Below, in pieces: positions 4,933 to 35,289 of a stretch of 35,311 nucleotides of DNA. Each line of letters starts with the position of its first letter. Positions within the stretch are counted from its first letter, which is position 1. The DNA is from a virus. The stretch lies in the IMG/VR virus record IMGVR_UViG_3300035698_006303, positions 1 through 35,311 of that record; one strand, 5' to 3'. Made by a program: the position numbers and the translations under genes. A model generated the notes under the pieces. It saw nothing but the letters and a program-made list of their open reading frames with translations, was not told the origin of the DNA and searched no databases.

Positions 4933-4968
4933 ATGCGTCTGAGTTTAAAAAACTCAATCAAGAATTAA
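4933..4968 (+). CDS. Possible 11-codon leader peptide
   Basis: AAGGAGG ends seven bases before an ATG at 4933 that opens a frame of 11 codons (MRLSLKNSIKN) ending TAA at 4966-4968. The ribosome site is one of the best in the window, yet the frame is tiny. GAGTTT and AAACTC inside it can pair as a small hairpin. It may be a translated leader controlling the gene at 5053, or the relic of a lost gene. Confidence 0.35.
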   Translation: MRLSLKNSIKN

Positions 4969-4970
4969 CG

Positions 4971-5019
4971 AACTAAGAACTAAGAACTAAGAACTAAGAA
5001 CTACGAATTACGAACTAAC
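4971..5019 (+). repeat. 7-bp tandem repeat, seven units
   Basis: Four perfect copies of AACTAAG at 4971-4998 are followed by AACTACG, AATTACG and AACTAAC to 5019. The repeat lies in an AT-rich spacer directly upstream of the replication block. It may be an iteron-like protein-binding array or a slippage-prone spacer; the perfect copies suggest recent expansion. Confidence 0.75.
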
Positions 5020-5052: not shown

Positions 5053-5922
5053 ATGAGTGACGAAAAAACGAACGGCGGTGGTTTAGCATCGCGAAATGAA
5101 ACAGCGATTAACAAAGTAAATGTTAATCCAGATTATCTTGCCAAATATATTGAGCAAGATGATAGTTTAGATGCTCTTAAAGAGCATCGAACGGTTCCGC
5201 GTTTCAAAATTCTGCAAGCTACAACTGAGCAAGAGCTTCTGGATAATTTTGGTGTCGGGACAGTCATTGTTCGTCCTGGCGACGCAATGATTTGTAAATA
5301 TAATCAAGATCCAAAATCATTTAATTTTGTACCTTTATTCTTCTTTGTTGAATGGGCAAAGTGGCGTGACATACGAGGCACAGGCCCGATGATTTTGGAA
5401 AGAACTCATGATCCTTCAAGTATAGTTGCGACAAATTCAAAAAATGCTAATGCTCGCAAAGAACTTTATGAAGGCCATGAGAATTTGCAAGATGCAGATA
5501 AGTTTTACTATGCTTATGTTGAGCATTTAAGATTTATCGGTGTTATTTATGGTGACCATCCGCTCGTCGGAACGCCTGTAACACTTTCTTTTGAAAGAGG
5601 CGAATGGGGCCAAGGTAAGAATTTCATCTCAGCAGTATCGCTTCGAAGACAAAATGTAAATAACGAGTCGAAACAAGTGCCTCTTTGGGCACAGGTTTGG
5701 AAATTAGGTACTGTTCATCATGCTCCAGATGCAACAAGAAAATGGTACGGATTCCAATTCGAGGCTGCTGAGCAATCCATTATTTTACCAGAAGAAGCTG
5801 AGCCGATGCAAAAACTTCATCTGGAATTTAAAGATTTGTTCGAGAAATCACGTCTGATGGTTATCGACGAGGAAGTTGTATCAGCCGACGATGCTTCAGT
5901 AAAAGCTAACAAAGAGTTTTAA
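5053..5922 (+). CDS. Conserved-looking phage protein, possibly ssDNA-binding (function uncertain)
   Basis: This encodes 289 residues with a TTGGAGAA ribosome site. After a flexible N-terminus come RPGDAMICKYN (about residues 74-84), a very aromatic segment (NFVPLFFFVEWAKW) and many mixed beta/alpha stretches. The C-terminus carries several acidic residues (VIDEEVVSADDA). Its position just ahead of kinase, deaminase and polymerase genes, its size and its acidic end would suit a single-stranded DNA-binding or recombination-annealing protein. I see no diagnostic OB-fold or RecT motif, so this is only a suggestion. It is followed by a strong terminator and so is probably well expressed. Confidence 0.6.
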   Translation: MSDEKTNGGGLASRNETAINKVNVNPDYLAKYIEQDDSLDALKEHRTVPRFKILQATTEQELLDNFGVGTVIVRPGDAMICKYNQDPKSFNFVPLFFFVEWAKWRDIRGTGPMILERTHDPSSIVATNSKNANARKELYEGHENLQDADKFYYAYVEHLRFIGVIYGDHPLVGTPVTLSFERGEWGQGKNFISAVSLRRQNVNNESKQVPLWAQVWKLGTVHHAPDATRKWYGFQFEAAEQSIILPEEAEPMQKLHLEFKDLFEKSRLMVIDEEVVSADDASVKANKEF

Positions 5923-12543: not shown

Positions 12544-13065
12544 ATGGCGGAAACAGTAAACAAAGTAACTCCAGAGACCGCAGAGAATGCGGAAAACGCG
12601 GAGACCGCAAATGATGCGGAAAACGTAGTAGATGCACCAGATGATGTAGCGAAGAAAAACAGTCGCATAGATTTTCCGATTGCGGAAGCTATGTACAGAG
12701 ACGACGAAGGAAATGTCGTGACAGCAGTTAATGCTGATGGCAAGCTCGTTGCGGTGCCGAAGCCAATCAAAGAAGGTGATGAAATTGTTTATACTGGTTT
12801 TGATTCCAGAAAACATAACGGATTGAAGAAAGATTCATTTGCCAGCATCGCAACATTTTTGCGATATCAAGCTTTGATTGCTCGGATTCGTGCCATTGCT
12901 CTCATTAAAGGAGCAGAGGAGAAGGAGCGTAAAGCCACTAACATCGAAAAGTTTGGCGACGAAGAGACACGCAAGAAGGTCCAGAAAGTTGCCAGAATGA
13001 AAGAGCAGCTTGCTCTTTTAACCAAGCAGCTTGAAGATGACAACGTCGATCTCAGTGAAATATAA
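12544..13065 (+). CDS. Acidic phage protein with repeat-rich N-terminus
   Basis: This encodes 173 residues from the ATG at 12544, set by the GGAGG site at 12530-12534. Residues 9-30 are an imperfect repeat (ETAENAENAETANDAEN), acidic and probably disordered. Residues 40-100 look like a small beta-rich domain (NVVTAVNADGKLVAVPKPIKEGD is one part). The C-terminal 70 residues are a charged coiled coil (KVARMKEQLALLTKQLEDD). Its stop is followed at once by a long two-part hairpin. The function is unknown. Confidence 0.65.
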   Translation: MAETVNKVTPETAENAENAETANDAENVVDAPDDVAKKNSRIDFPIAEAMYRDDEGNVVTAVNADGKLVAVPKPIKEGDEIVYTGFDSRKHNGLKKDSFASIATFLRYQALIARIRAIALIKGAEEKERKATNIEKFGDEETRKKVQKVARMKEQLALLTKQLEDDNVDLSEI

Positions 13066-13124: not shown

Positions 13125-13155
13125 AAAAGAAATGTAATTAATCAGGAGAATGAGA

Positions 13156-13647
13156 ATGAAAGGGCTTGCTAATTACAAAATCACCACAAAAAGACGATTG
13201 AAAAGCATCGCTGAAAGTAAGAAAGTTGATGAAGTTCTTTTAAAACACTATACTTTTATCTTAGAACATTTTGATGAAATGGTTGCCAAACACGACCAAG
13301 AAATTTTTAAGATCGAAGAAGAAAAAGCTGAATTGTTCAAGCAATTTGTCGAAGCACCGCAACTCTTAAAAGAATTAGCACAACATCTTGATGAATTAAC
13401 AAAGACAAAGAAAAATGTCACAGGCCAAGATAGTAAAGTAAAGAAATTTAAAGATTTACGAGAGCGACTTGAAAAATTAACAGCTGAAATGAAAGATGAA
13501 GGAATCGACATCAATGAAGTTGAATCCAAGATAGAAGAAGCGACAAAAGAAGACGAGCGAATAGCAGCAGAAGCAAAAATAGCTGAAGATGAAAGAGTTG
13601 CTAAAATCGAAGCTGAAAAAATAGCTGATGGCACAATGGCACAATGA
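13156..13647 (+). CDS. Coiled-coil protein
   Basis: This encodes 163 residues from the second ATG of an AGGAGAATGAGAATG cassette. Nearly the whole protein is predicted to be long charged helices (EEEKAELFKQF, LRERLEKLTAEMKDEG, then KAEDERVAKIEAEK-like repeats). It probably oligomerises and is otherwise unrecognised. It is the last gene before the hairpin array. Confidence 0.65.
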   Translation: MKGLANYKITTKRRLKSIAESKKVDEVLLKHYTFILEHFDEMVAKHDQEIFKIEEEKAELFKQFVEAPQLLKELAQHLDELTKTKKNVTGQDSKVKKFKDLRERLEKLTAEMKDEGIDINEVESKIEEATKEDERIAAEAKIAEDERVAKIEAEKIADGTMAQ

Positions 13648-13661
13648 GATAATTCTCACGA

Positions 13662-13813
13662 GCTGGTCTGTACCTGCGATACTGAATGCAGTACCATGTA
13701 CCAGCGTTACTGAAGGCAGGTCAAGTACCTGCGATACTGAAGGCAGGTCAAGTACCTGCGATACTGAAGGCAGGTCAAGTACCTGCGATACTGAAGGCCG
13801 GTCAAATACCGGC
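13662..13813 (+). repeat. Tandem hairpin array, 27-bp period, with paired substitutions
   Basis: Units of 27-28 bp run from 13678 (13678-13705, 13706-13732, 13733-13759, 13760-13786, 13787-13813). The typical unit contains GCAGGT-CAAGT-ACCTGC, a 6-bp stem with a 5-base loop. In the last unit both arms changed (GCCGGT / ACCGGC), and an enclosing pair at the left end reads GCTGGT (13662-13667) / ACCAGC (13700-13705). The third stem position is thus A-T, C-G or T-A, always paired. An arm can also pair with that of the next unit across GATACTGAAG. A frame is open through it but has no ribosome site. Confidence 0.85.
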
Positions 13814-14037
13814 TATAGATCTTAGAGATGCTGATGGACTTAAATAGGATCCAGTAGAAGCAACCGCGTCCAGTACATTACGGCGGTTATTAGTTCCCGA
13901 AGGCTGGAATAGGGACGATTTCATTTTCTTCATCCAGAGCGAGGTTCGCCGCCTCATTAGAGGTTACAAAATGACGATTTAAGGGAATCATCCTACTCGC
14001 TAATTTTAACTACAATATAATTTAGGAGATTAAAAAA
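13814..14037 (+). other. Gene-free region with several inverted repeats
   Basis: No convincing frame is seen. Dyads include AACCGC (13862-13867) / GCGGTT (13882-13887), TCCC/GGGA around GAAGGCTGGAATA (about 13895-13915) and GAGG/CCTC (13941-13955). Base composition looks richer in G+C than the flanking genes. Together with the array this makes a 390-base non-coding segment before the ligase unit, a candidate structured RNA or regulatory/replication region. A TATAAT at 14016-14021 lies too close to the next ribosome site to be its promoter. Confidence 0.5.
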
Positions 14038-14172
14038 ATGCGGTATCATATAAAAAATATGGCTGGCGATACAATCGCATCGTTTAAGCACGAATGTGAT
14101 AGAGATATATGTTTTGATGCTTTCAGGGATTACTATGGCGAAGACTTTCAATTAGATGCGGTAAACTCATGA
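14038..14172 (+). CDS. 44-residue hypothetical protein
   Basis: The ATG at 14038 follows TAGGAGA (14023-14029). The product (MRYHIKNMAGDTIASFKHEC to AVNS) is short and mixed in charge with two cysteines. The TGA at 14170-14172 overlaps the ligase start (ATGA), so it is the first gene of the ligase unit. It resembles the small beta-hairpin peptides common in phages, but no family is assigned. Confidence 0.6.
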   Translation: MRYHIKNMAGDTIASFKHECDRDICFDAFRDYYGEDFQLDAVNS

Positions 14173-15038
14173 ACAATATAGAGCTTCCAAAATTTAAAGA
14201 TTATACAAATCAAAAAGTAAACTTTATTCAGCCGAAATTGGATGGACATTTTGCGAAAATTGTGAGACATAACTCAGGTCTATTTACCGCAACTTCCAAA
14301 AATGGTAAAGATATCACATATAAGCTAATGGAAATAGGGCATATAAAAGATGAATTAAATCTTATGCCTTTTGGAAGTTGTATTCTGGCAGAGCTACATT
14401 GTCCAGGCGTTTTTGCAACAGACGTTCCAACAATGCTTAATAATGCGGATGAAAAATTATTATTAACCGCATTTGCAGCTCCTTGGTGGGCTGGTAAAGA
14501 TGCTTCTGGTATGCATCTTGAATTAGTTATAATGCAATTAAAAGAACTTGGATTTTCAGTTGCTCATGTTATATGTGTCTATAGCCCCTTTGTAGATGAA
14601 AAAGGTAAAGAAGCATTGCTTGAACTTGCTGTTAGTAATAAATTTGAAGGCTATGTTTTAAAAGAGAGTCATATGACTGGCTGGTATAAATTAAAGCCAG
14701 TAAAATTAATTGATATTTTTGTAACAGGAACTCATCAATCTTTTAGTAGCTTACACTATGGCGGTTTAAAAAGTATTCGAGCAGCTGCTTATGATAAGAA
14801 TGGAAAAATACACGATCTCGGAAATGTGGGAGGAGGCTTTGATAAAGAACATCGCCAATTATATAATACACAAGAAAAACGAGATGCTTTAATTGGTGAA
14901 GTTTGCGAAGTCAAATGCGACTGTTTAGCAGCTAACGGGAAATTACGTTTTCCGCGAATAGCAAAAAATGAAGATGGTTCTCTTAAGTGGAGAACAGATA
15001 AAGATCCAAAACAATGTACAATGGAGCAATTTGAATGA
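14169..15038 (+). CDS. ATP-dependent DNA ligase
   Basis: This encodes 289 residues. The nucleotidyltransferase motifs are in order: motif I QPKLDG with Lys23 as the adenylated lysine, motif III AELHCPG with Glu75, motif IV FEGYVLK (159-165) and motif V WYKLKP (172-177). A compact C-terminal part (residues about 183-289) fits an OB-fold domain. The length is close to that of small viral ATP ligases. It seals nicks left after PolA and the 5' nuclease act, completing lagging-strand synthesis. It is coupled to the small gene upstream by ATGA. Confidence 0.9.
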   Translation: MNNIELPKFKDYTNQKVNFIQPKLDGHFAKIVRHNSGLFTATSKNGKDITYKLMEIGHIKDELNLMPFGSCILAELHCPGVFATDVPTMLNNADEKLLLTAFAAPWWAGKDASGMHLELVIMQLKELGFSVAHVICVYSPFVDEKGKEALLELAVSNKFEGYVLKESHMTGWYKLKPVKLIDIFVTGTHQSFSSLHYGGLKSIRAAAYDKNGKIHDLGNVGGGFDKEHRQLYNTQEKRDALIGEVCEVKCDCLAANGKLRFPRIAKNEDGSLKWRTDKDPKQCTMEQFE

Positions 15039-25272: not shown

Positions 25273-25984
25273 AAAGAAAAGAGATAAAATTTTTATATGG
25301 CCGTCGTGGATCTCTAAGCTGGTTGCTGGCGAAGATCAATGCGAATGGAAAATATGGTTTAAAAGTCGTTTTATGTACGACAAATTACCATCAGATTTTA
25401 ACTTAGCAAGATGGACTATAAACCATACACAATTGTTGCGAAGCCGAAGGGATGCTTTAGAAAGACTTGGTTTTAAAGTTTATGTTGAAGACCAAAATTC
25501 TTTTAAGTTGGATGCTATATTAACTGAAGATGGCCATGTAATGCTTATAGATGATTGGAAAGAAGAAAGTGGAATAAAAACAGAGTTTACACTTTCTGGA
25601 AAAGCAGATATTGTTGCAATCGGTGAAGATGAAGATGAAATAATTCCACACAAAATGCACATCGTTGCAGTAGTAGAAGATATGAAAACTGGCAGCTGTA
25701 AAACCAGCGACCATGTTCAAGTTGTTATTTATATGATGTTTCTGCCAAAAGCAATTGAGATGTACAAGGATTTGAAATTTAGTGGCTGTATTGTTTATAA
25801 ACTTGGTGTGCCTAATGTCGATATTCCTATTGACGCAGCACAAGACGAGAGTTTTAAACAAGCTATTTGGGATGCCATTAAAAGAACTGTTGGTGATGAA
25901 GCAGGGTGTCGAAAAGTTCCAAGTCAAAAAGAATGTGCTTGGTGTGATATTCCTAAAGATGAATGCAGTGCGAGAATTGGTTAA
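25265..25984 (+). CDS. Cas4/RecB-like PD-(D/E)XK nuclease with Fe-S cysteines
   Basis: This encodes 239 residues. Catalytic residues of the RecB/Cas4 nuclease family are in order: His54 (NHTQ), Asp115 in SGKADIVAI, Glu138 and Lys141 in VVEDMKTG, and Q152-x3-Y156 in HVQVVIYM. Cys26 near the N-terminus plus Cys224, Cys227 and Cys234 (with Cys215 nearby) match the four-cysteine 4Fe-4S cluster of Cas4 and AddB nucleases. No cas1 or cas2 and no CRISPR repeat is present, so it is probably a phage recombination or end-processing exonuclease. It sits with a second nuclease gene at 29112. Confidence 0.85.
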   Translation: MSKKKRDKIFIWPSWISKLVAGEDQCEWKIWFKSRFMYDKLPSDFNLARWTINHTQLLRSRRDALERLGFKVYVEDQNSFKLDAILTEDGHVMLIDDWKEESGIKTEFTLSGKADIVAIGEDEDEIIPHKMHIVAVVEDMKTGSCKTSDHVQVVIYMMFLPKAIEMYKDLKFSGCIVYKLGVPNVDIPIDAAQDESFKQAIWDAIKRTVGDEAGCRKVPSQKECAWCDIPKDECSARIG

Positions 25985-35060: not shown

Positions 35061-35093
35061 TTTAGTACCATTTTAGTACCATTTTAGTACCAA
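35061..35093 (+). repeat. Iteron-like direct repeat TTTAGTACCAT, three units
   Basis: TTTAGTACCAT at 35061-35071 and 35072-35082 and TTTAGTACCAA at 35083-35093 are head to tail with an 11-bp period, about one helical turn. They start 53 bases after the primase-helicase stop. Such spacing is typical of initiator-binding iterons. The same motif recurs in the inverted repeat that follows. Confidence 0.8.
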
Positions 35094-35153
35094 ATTTCAG
35101 GGCCAAATGGGCTTAGGAAAACGCTCATTGTGCGTCGTGCGTTGCGATTTTCT

Positions 35154-35289
35154 CGATTTAGTACCATTAGTACCAAATTTTTCTCCCATTACAGCCTACA
35201 GTGAACTAAACACAACATTTCATTATTTTTACAGTTTTGCATATAAGCTGCTCAGTGTAGTTTCAAATGGTACTAATGGTACTAAATCG
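35154..35289. repeat. Perfect 22-bp inverted repeat built from GTACCA motifs
   Basis: The 22 bases at 35154-35175 (CGATTTAGTACCATTAGTAC plus CA) are the exact reverse complement of 35268-35289. Each arm contains two GTACCA motifs, and the 92-base interval is AT-rich (CATTATTTTTACAG). A further TGGTAC lies at the right edge of the window, cut off by it. Together with the direct repeats it forms a candidate origin or an operator cluster. Confidence 0.8.

Follow-up and report, generated by a model that had tools for sequence, protein, structure and literature searches.

When a tandem repeat of hairpins lies between two phage genes and some of its copies have changed in both arms of the stem at once, a question about its origin is unavoidable: was base pairing selected, as in a structured RNA, or is the pattern a product of the way in which repeats mutate? 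Such a repeat occupies positions 13662-13813 of the stretch of DNA analyzed here, a virus record of 35,311 bases (hereinafter, the window), in which DNA polymerase, primase, exonucleases, and an ATP-dependent ligase are recognized and which, judging from its sequence, is taken to be that of a tailed phage. The repeat lies in the left half of a 390-base gap between phage genes (13648-14037). The left border of the gap is the gene for a coiled-coil-like protein of 165 amino acids (13150-13647, plus strand); on the right, the gap ends at an open reading frame of 44 codons with a good ribosome site (TTTAGGAG; 14038-14172, plus strand), followed by the gene for the ATP-dependent DNA ligase (14169-15038, plus strand; PHROG 114, E 1.9e-18). 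Related records were gathered using the ligase and the DNA polymerase and, later, the neighboring 175-aa protein; the 165-aa protein as a lone query gave no match, and a DNA search of phage and plasmid record collections gave no informative one. The left border is conserved: polymerase, 175-aa protein, 165-aa protein, and gap follow one another in this order also in L009, L248, L253, L254, L256, and L264, with a 42% identical homologue of the 165-aa protein in the same place in L009 and further homologues in the other five.

The repeat itself is real. It is the strongest TRF call in the window (period 27, 5.4 copies, score 217), its units follow each other at 27 nt with one step of 28 nt, and its G+C content is 53% against 36% for the genome. 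Read off the sequence, the left end runs GCTGGT-CTGT-ACCTGC-GATACTGAAT-GCAGTACCATGT-ACCAGC-GTTACTGAAG, and the remainder consists of three copies of GCAGGT-CAAGT-ACCTGC-GATACTGAAG followed by GCCGGT-CAAAT-ACCGGC. The original prediction described five adjacent units, each with a 6-bp stem. The tandem arrangement holds, but the first two units lack stems of their own: in GCTGGT/ACCTGC, two T's face each other, and the pairing of GCAGTA.../ACCAGC is interrupted. Instead, the array comprises four intact hairpins plus a composite one, all on the plus strand, namely, the composite hairpin at the left (13662-13705), in which the outer arms GCTGGT/ACCAGC enclose GTACCTGC-GATACTGAAT-GCAGTAC (computed fold, -16.0 kcal/mol), three identical hairpins given by both the repeat call and the sequence (13716-13732, 13743-13759, and 13770-13786), and the hairpin of the last unit (13797-13813), in which the third pair is compensated. 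The covariation claimed for the third stem position is likewise less regular than described, and comes down to two events: the last unit shows a true double change from A-T to C-G, and GCTGGT and ACCAGC pair with each other only as the outer arms of the composite hairpin.

The array was found in none of the 14 other records, related or element-bearing (see below), at up to three mismatches in a 24-mer, a search that returned four matches in the window itself as a positive control. A 16-base exact array pattern had seven matches among viral contigs, none of them tandem or with a hairpin, and these were taken as chance. The absence from the 14 other records therefore provides no functional tie between the array and the kissing-loop element described below. 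Since three of the units are identical, a recent duplication is suggested, and the array is a real, lineage-specific hairpin repeat. It is not an array of the CRISPR type, as its units follow directly on one another every 27 or 28 nt and no spacers separate them, and scans of the window found no tRNA, tmRNA, or CRISPR array.

The window holds some other repeats as well. After the primase gene, at 35062-35285, TTAGTACCA occurs seven times in exact form, five times on the plus and twice on the minus strand, where 0.16 copies would be expected, making up an operator-like or origin-like cluster of sites; AGTACCAT, the core of TTAGTACCA, is present once within the left unit of the array, at 13690. 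At 4960-5018, the heptamer AAGAACT is repeated about eight times, ending some 35 bases before an open reading frame that starts at 5053, with a ribosome site in between. Finally, a repeat at 12574-12625 has the same 27-nt period as the array and an unlike sequence; it lies in the coding sequence for the Glu-Asn-Ala-rich N-terminal part of the 175-aa protein.

As for the folds, the original prediction that an arm can pair either within its unit or with the neighboring unit is borne out by computation: the local hairpin is estimated at -9.0 kcal/mol, and the pairing across GATACTGAAG at -8.5 to -9.3 kcal/mol, so that two alternative folds would be available. In the ensemble fold, the three inner units divide their pairing among several partners, with a probability of 0.27-0.45 each, and the last unit pairs with itself with a probability of 1.00 and has no other partner. 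According to this model, the changed pairs at the two ends of the array would lock the end units in place, and the units between them could still exchange partners. Compared with shuffled sequences, the array folds at z = -3.0 in the sense and z = -2.6 in the antisense orientation.

How much, then, does the covariation of the array show? It had been proposed that the paired changes of the arms reflect selection for pairing rather than for primary sequence. The two events are there, but changes of this kind admit other origins. For the last unit, when three substitutions are placed at random in the 17-nt hairpin, a Watson-Crick double change that keeps all six pairs appears in about 2% of the draws. 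The number of repeats adds no independent evidence for structure because tandem copying multiplies a single hairpin. Furthermore, template switching between stem arms has been reported as a one-step source of compensatory stem changes (PMC8794818), and it is reported to act at quasipalindromes in E. coli as well (PMC7202029). Nor is the pattern of the last unit specific to RNA, because the changes GCA>GCC and CCT>CCG are synonymous in one reading frame. Thus, the array on its own does not establish an RNA.

The notion of a structured RNA nevertheless stands for the locus, although the array's two double changes do not carry it; the support comes from a neighboring element and from the folding of the gap in most relatives. 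About 50 nt downstream of the array, in the same gap, lies an element at 13862-13925 (plus strand) that consists of two hairpins, P1 (AACCGC/GCGGTT) and P2 (TCCC/GGGA), with TCCAG in loop 1 complementary to CTGGA in loop 2, hence the name kissing-loop element. It was first spotted as a short block common to this part of the window and the gap of L009, and search patterns were built from that block. The matches listed for a loose pattern were mostly chance in the case of viral contigs, with L107 (the L009 contig) and L120 being true, and among the matches listed for genomes there was no true one. A tight pattern yielded seven true stretches, that is, six further distinct elements, as those of L264 and L265 are identical; L261 was rejected as an element, given the misfit of its downstream arm and its apparent location in a coding stretch. 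Altogether, the sample comprises seven distinct sequences (the window, L009, L248, L263, L264, L266, and L120), six of them from related phages, and every one contains the two hairpins.

The stems of this element are maintained by different bases. P1 is AACCGC/GCGGTT in the window, TTCGC/GCGAA in L248, ATCGC/GCGAT in L264, GTTGT/ACAAC in L266, and CGCCGC/GCGGCG in L120; P2 is mostly built around CCC/GGG, with GTCTC/GAGAC in L266 and ACTCC/GGAGT in L009. In an alignment of the seven sequences (A2), 92.8% of the cells are paired and 10 of the 16 pairs have changed on both sides with pairing kept, against at most 46.8% and four pairs in controls with slid partners. RNAalifold, unaided, arrives at the same P1 and P2 stems, and when arms were swapped among the phages, the native score was reached by the native pairing only, one of 5,040 permutations. 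The P1 and P2 arms, except for one base of P2, were outside the search patterns. Loop 1 reads UCCAG or CCCAG, the complement of CUGGA or CUGGG in loop 2; four of the five kissing pairs are invariant, at least in part by data selection, since the patterns held most of the kissing stem. The outermost loop-loop pair, which was not fixed as a pair in the patterns, covaries, being U-A in five sequences and C-G in two. Counted modulo 3, the spacing between the conserved loops gives every possible remainder, so the block is not a conserved peptide. Pairing in the homologues survives changes in both arms, which is the mark of a structured RNA. A covariance model matches the window at 13862-13919 with 69.2 bits, the window being among the sequences from which the model was built. 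In Rfam 15, the window has no match at the gathering threshold (the best below it had E 1.1 and 15.7 bits versus 43), and L120, L248, and L009 have no credible match.

Seven of the 14 related records have the element, each in a single copy. Its place is the same gap, after the same upstream gene, in the window, L009, L248, L263, and L264; the element is missing where the neighboring genes abut (L253 and L254) and from the gap of L256. A search with the model of the element found no instance among 298 genomes from a single bacterial class, which was a guess at the host and may not include the true one. The source of L120 is a temperate phage with an integrase, a head-tail connector, and a terminase that has no protein in common with the window at a tblastn E of 1e-3; its possession of the element indicates that the element crosses phage lineages. 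There, the element (L120:2614-2678, minus strand) lies about 600 nt from the integrase gene, near what appears by eye to be the 3' half of a tRNA (attachment site).

Next to this constant element, the gap contains other hairpins that vary. Upstream of the element, folds are more stable than those of shuffled sequences in the window (z -2.9), L248 (-2.2), L266 (-5.1), and L264 (-3.0); downstream, the same applies to L009 (-4.0) and L263 (-7.2). The hairpins on either side differ among the relatives. What stays constant in the gap is thus the element, and what varies is the set of hairpins beside it, the array being the form that these take in this phage. Alignment of the 5' parts across phages is convincing for L248 and L266 alone: in L248:7671-7945 and L266:94-335 (minus strand), a common 5' hairpin block, GCGAGTTACTCTTAATC...AAAAAGAGC...GGAGCAGATAYGATAAYTCTGYTCC, precedes the kissing-loop element and may represent a second conserved RNA domain. 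A derivation of the array units from the element (GTTACTGAAGGCAGG versus GTTCCCGAAGGCTGG, 12 of 15 positions) was considered and dropped as not significant, with 7-18% of shuffles as good. On the 3' side of the window element, a possible closing hairpin, GCGAG...CTCGC followed by TAATTTTA (13942-13999, plus strand), is suggested by sequence and fold; it is terminator-like by eye and was not flagged by a terminator scan, and a Rho-independent terminator 3' of the element in all relatives was likewise unsupported by the scan. Four of the records encode a small conserved protein (EQWTRAEIMAR...), its gene either following the gap directly or adjoining the upstream gene (L253:8559-8846, L254:13628-13915, L263:562-855, and L248:8005-8298), and, by eye, the frame DDFIFFIQSEVRRLIRGYKMTI 3' of the element in the window may be a remnant of it.

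Taken together, these observations make it somewhat more probable than the contrary that the gap is a phage RNA region, non-coding and probably transcribed, in which a kissing-loop core is accompanied by a tandemly expanded 5' hairpin that multiplies a binding site. The two hairpins of the core would most likely kiss through their complementary loops, and the near-invariant loop sequences would probably hold a protein or a ligand, or else a target RNA. On the 5' side of the core, the sequence is free to vary, and the relatives have different hairpins there; in this phage, tandem duplication would have multiplied a single hairpin unit, of which three copies are still identical. The end units, with their changed pairs, would pair with themselves only, and the three inner units could exchange partners. 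The array, the conserved element with its covariation, and the varying hairpin content of the gap are established by the sequences; we infer that the region is transcribed, that the array and the core share one RNA, and that the array, as a repeated binding hairpin, raises valency. Against this reading are the confinement of the array to a single record (0 of 14 others), the near-equal stability of its sense and antisense folds, as would be the case for a DNA dyad, the short and weakly folded upstream stretches of L009 and L263 (z about -1.5), and a scan around the window gap that gave no promoter or terminator above chance. A bolder version, which we regard as improbable, would make the array and the element together a new class of RNA: the core, small and conserved, would serve unrelated phages as an aptamer, a ribozyme, or a module for protein docking, and the variable 5' hairpins, represented here by the register-exchanging array, would be an exchangeable effector that might, for instance, decoy an RNA-binding protein of the host or an RNase toxin.

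The near-equality of the two strands and the solitary occurrence of the array are equally what would be expected of a neutral minisatellite, in which a hairpin is duplicated by slipped-strand events and its arms are kept identical by template switching at imperfect palindromes, with no selection for pairing. The three identical copies, as after a recent expansion, and the reports of template switching cited above are in line with this explanation, which we consider possible, if doubtful, because the gap holds a conserved RNA as well as other hairpins in the relatives, and because the composite left hairpin pairs through a change in two different units, for which one local template switch is no simple explanation. 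Equivalence of the strands and preservation of the dyad by symmetric changes would also suit a binding site for protein on DNA. A 6-5-6 dyad geometry is typical of repressor operators, and the array units have it: dyads of 17 bp, GCNGGT-N5-ACCNGC, with arms about one helical turn apart, recur every 27 bp and might, from their sequence, serve as a tandem operator or iteron array for a dimeric phage protein. This appears unlikely, however, as exact copies of the dyad are confined to the array, the window having a single one-mismatch copy elsewhere (at 25692) and the relatives none; the covariation and phase-free spacing of the neighboring element indicate RNA in this gap; and the TTAGTACCA family at the end of the window looks more operator-like.

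Translation of the nine-codon periodic frame, which the original prediction had named as evidence against itself, is an objection that the data weaken only in part. The 53-aa open reading frame at 13686-13847 would yield a short repeat peptide, MQYHVPALLK-(AGQVPAILK)3-AGQIPAIDL..., with the stem changes read as synonymous codon changes; in the last unit, GCA>GCC, CCT>CCG, and GCG>GCT are indeed synonymous and GTA>ATA is conservative. However, the ATG lies within the array, immediately after an in-frame stop, and has no Shine-Dalgarno sequence by eye, although the neighboring genes do; the 28-nt step breaks the frame between the first two units, so that there is no continuous frame with a ribosome site; and the relatives have no such peptide. 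We therefore consider a translated repeat very unlikely. Hardly any more credence can be given to the analogy-based suggestion that the array might be the phage's imitation of a type III antitoxin RNA from its host, with the expansion serving to block an endoribonuclease toxin of that host. Tandem repeats of RNA type, their recent expansion, and the precedent of phage TE, whose escape mutants against ToxIN carry an expanded pseudo-ToxI (PMC5086642), all speak for such a decoy. Yet, type III antitoxin RNAs by definition consist of tandem repeats with a terminator and a gene for ToxN, CptN, or TenpN downstream (PMC5086642), whereas the array is followed by the 44-aa frame and the DNA ligase gene; a PADLOC scan of the proteins around the gap found no such toxin, only weak matches of the coiled-coil type, and there is no Rfam match.

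By itself, the array is a curiosity of a single phage. Its neighbor is of broader import: it is a structured RNA outside Rfam 15, and its presence in seven contigs from two unrelated types of phage suggests that it performs a task from which different phages benefit. At about 60 nt it is compact and testable, as well as being a natural case of a conserved RNA core adjoined by an expansion of tandem hairpins. The two side by side illustrate why covariation within tandem arrays needs other evidence, as template switching can mimic it.

Several known systems invite comparison. Quasipalindrome template-switch products (PMC8794818) share with the array the joint change of both stem arms; they denote, however, a mutational cause and not a functional class, and the covariation of the kissing-loop element between phages is not easily explained in this way. 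Iterons of phage origins and dyad-symmetric repressor operators resemble the array in their tandem units, each with a 17-bp dyad, and differ from it inasmuch as the array's dyad has no exact copy elsewhere and its gap bears a conserved RNA element. The antitoxin RNAs ToxI, CptI, and TenpI, along with the phage pseudo-ToxI, are also short structured RNA units in tandem, with recent expansion known in phage, but the array lacks the toxin gene, or terminator and then toxin, that would follow. The core may be set beside GOLLD and ROOL, structured RNAs from intergenic regions in phages and environmental bacteria that were discovered by comparative genomics and for which cryo-EM structures are available (PMC12286853). 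Although the element described here is only about 60 nt long, and the window, L120, L248, and L009 gave no credible match in Rfam 15, it has in common with RNAs of this type a conserved secondary structure, loop-loop contacts, and no known protein product.
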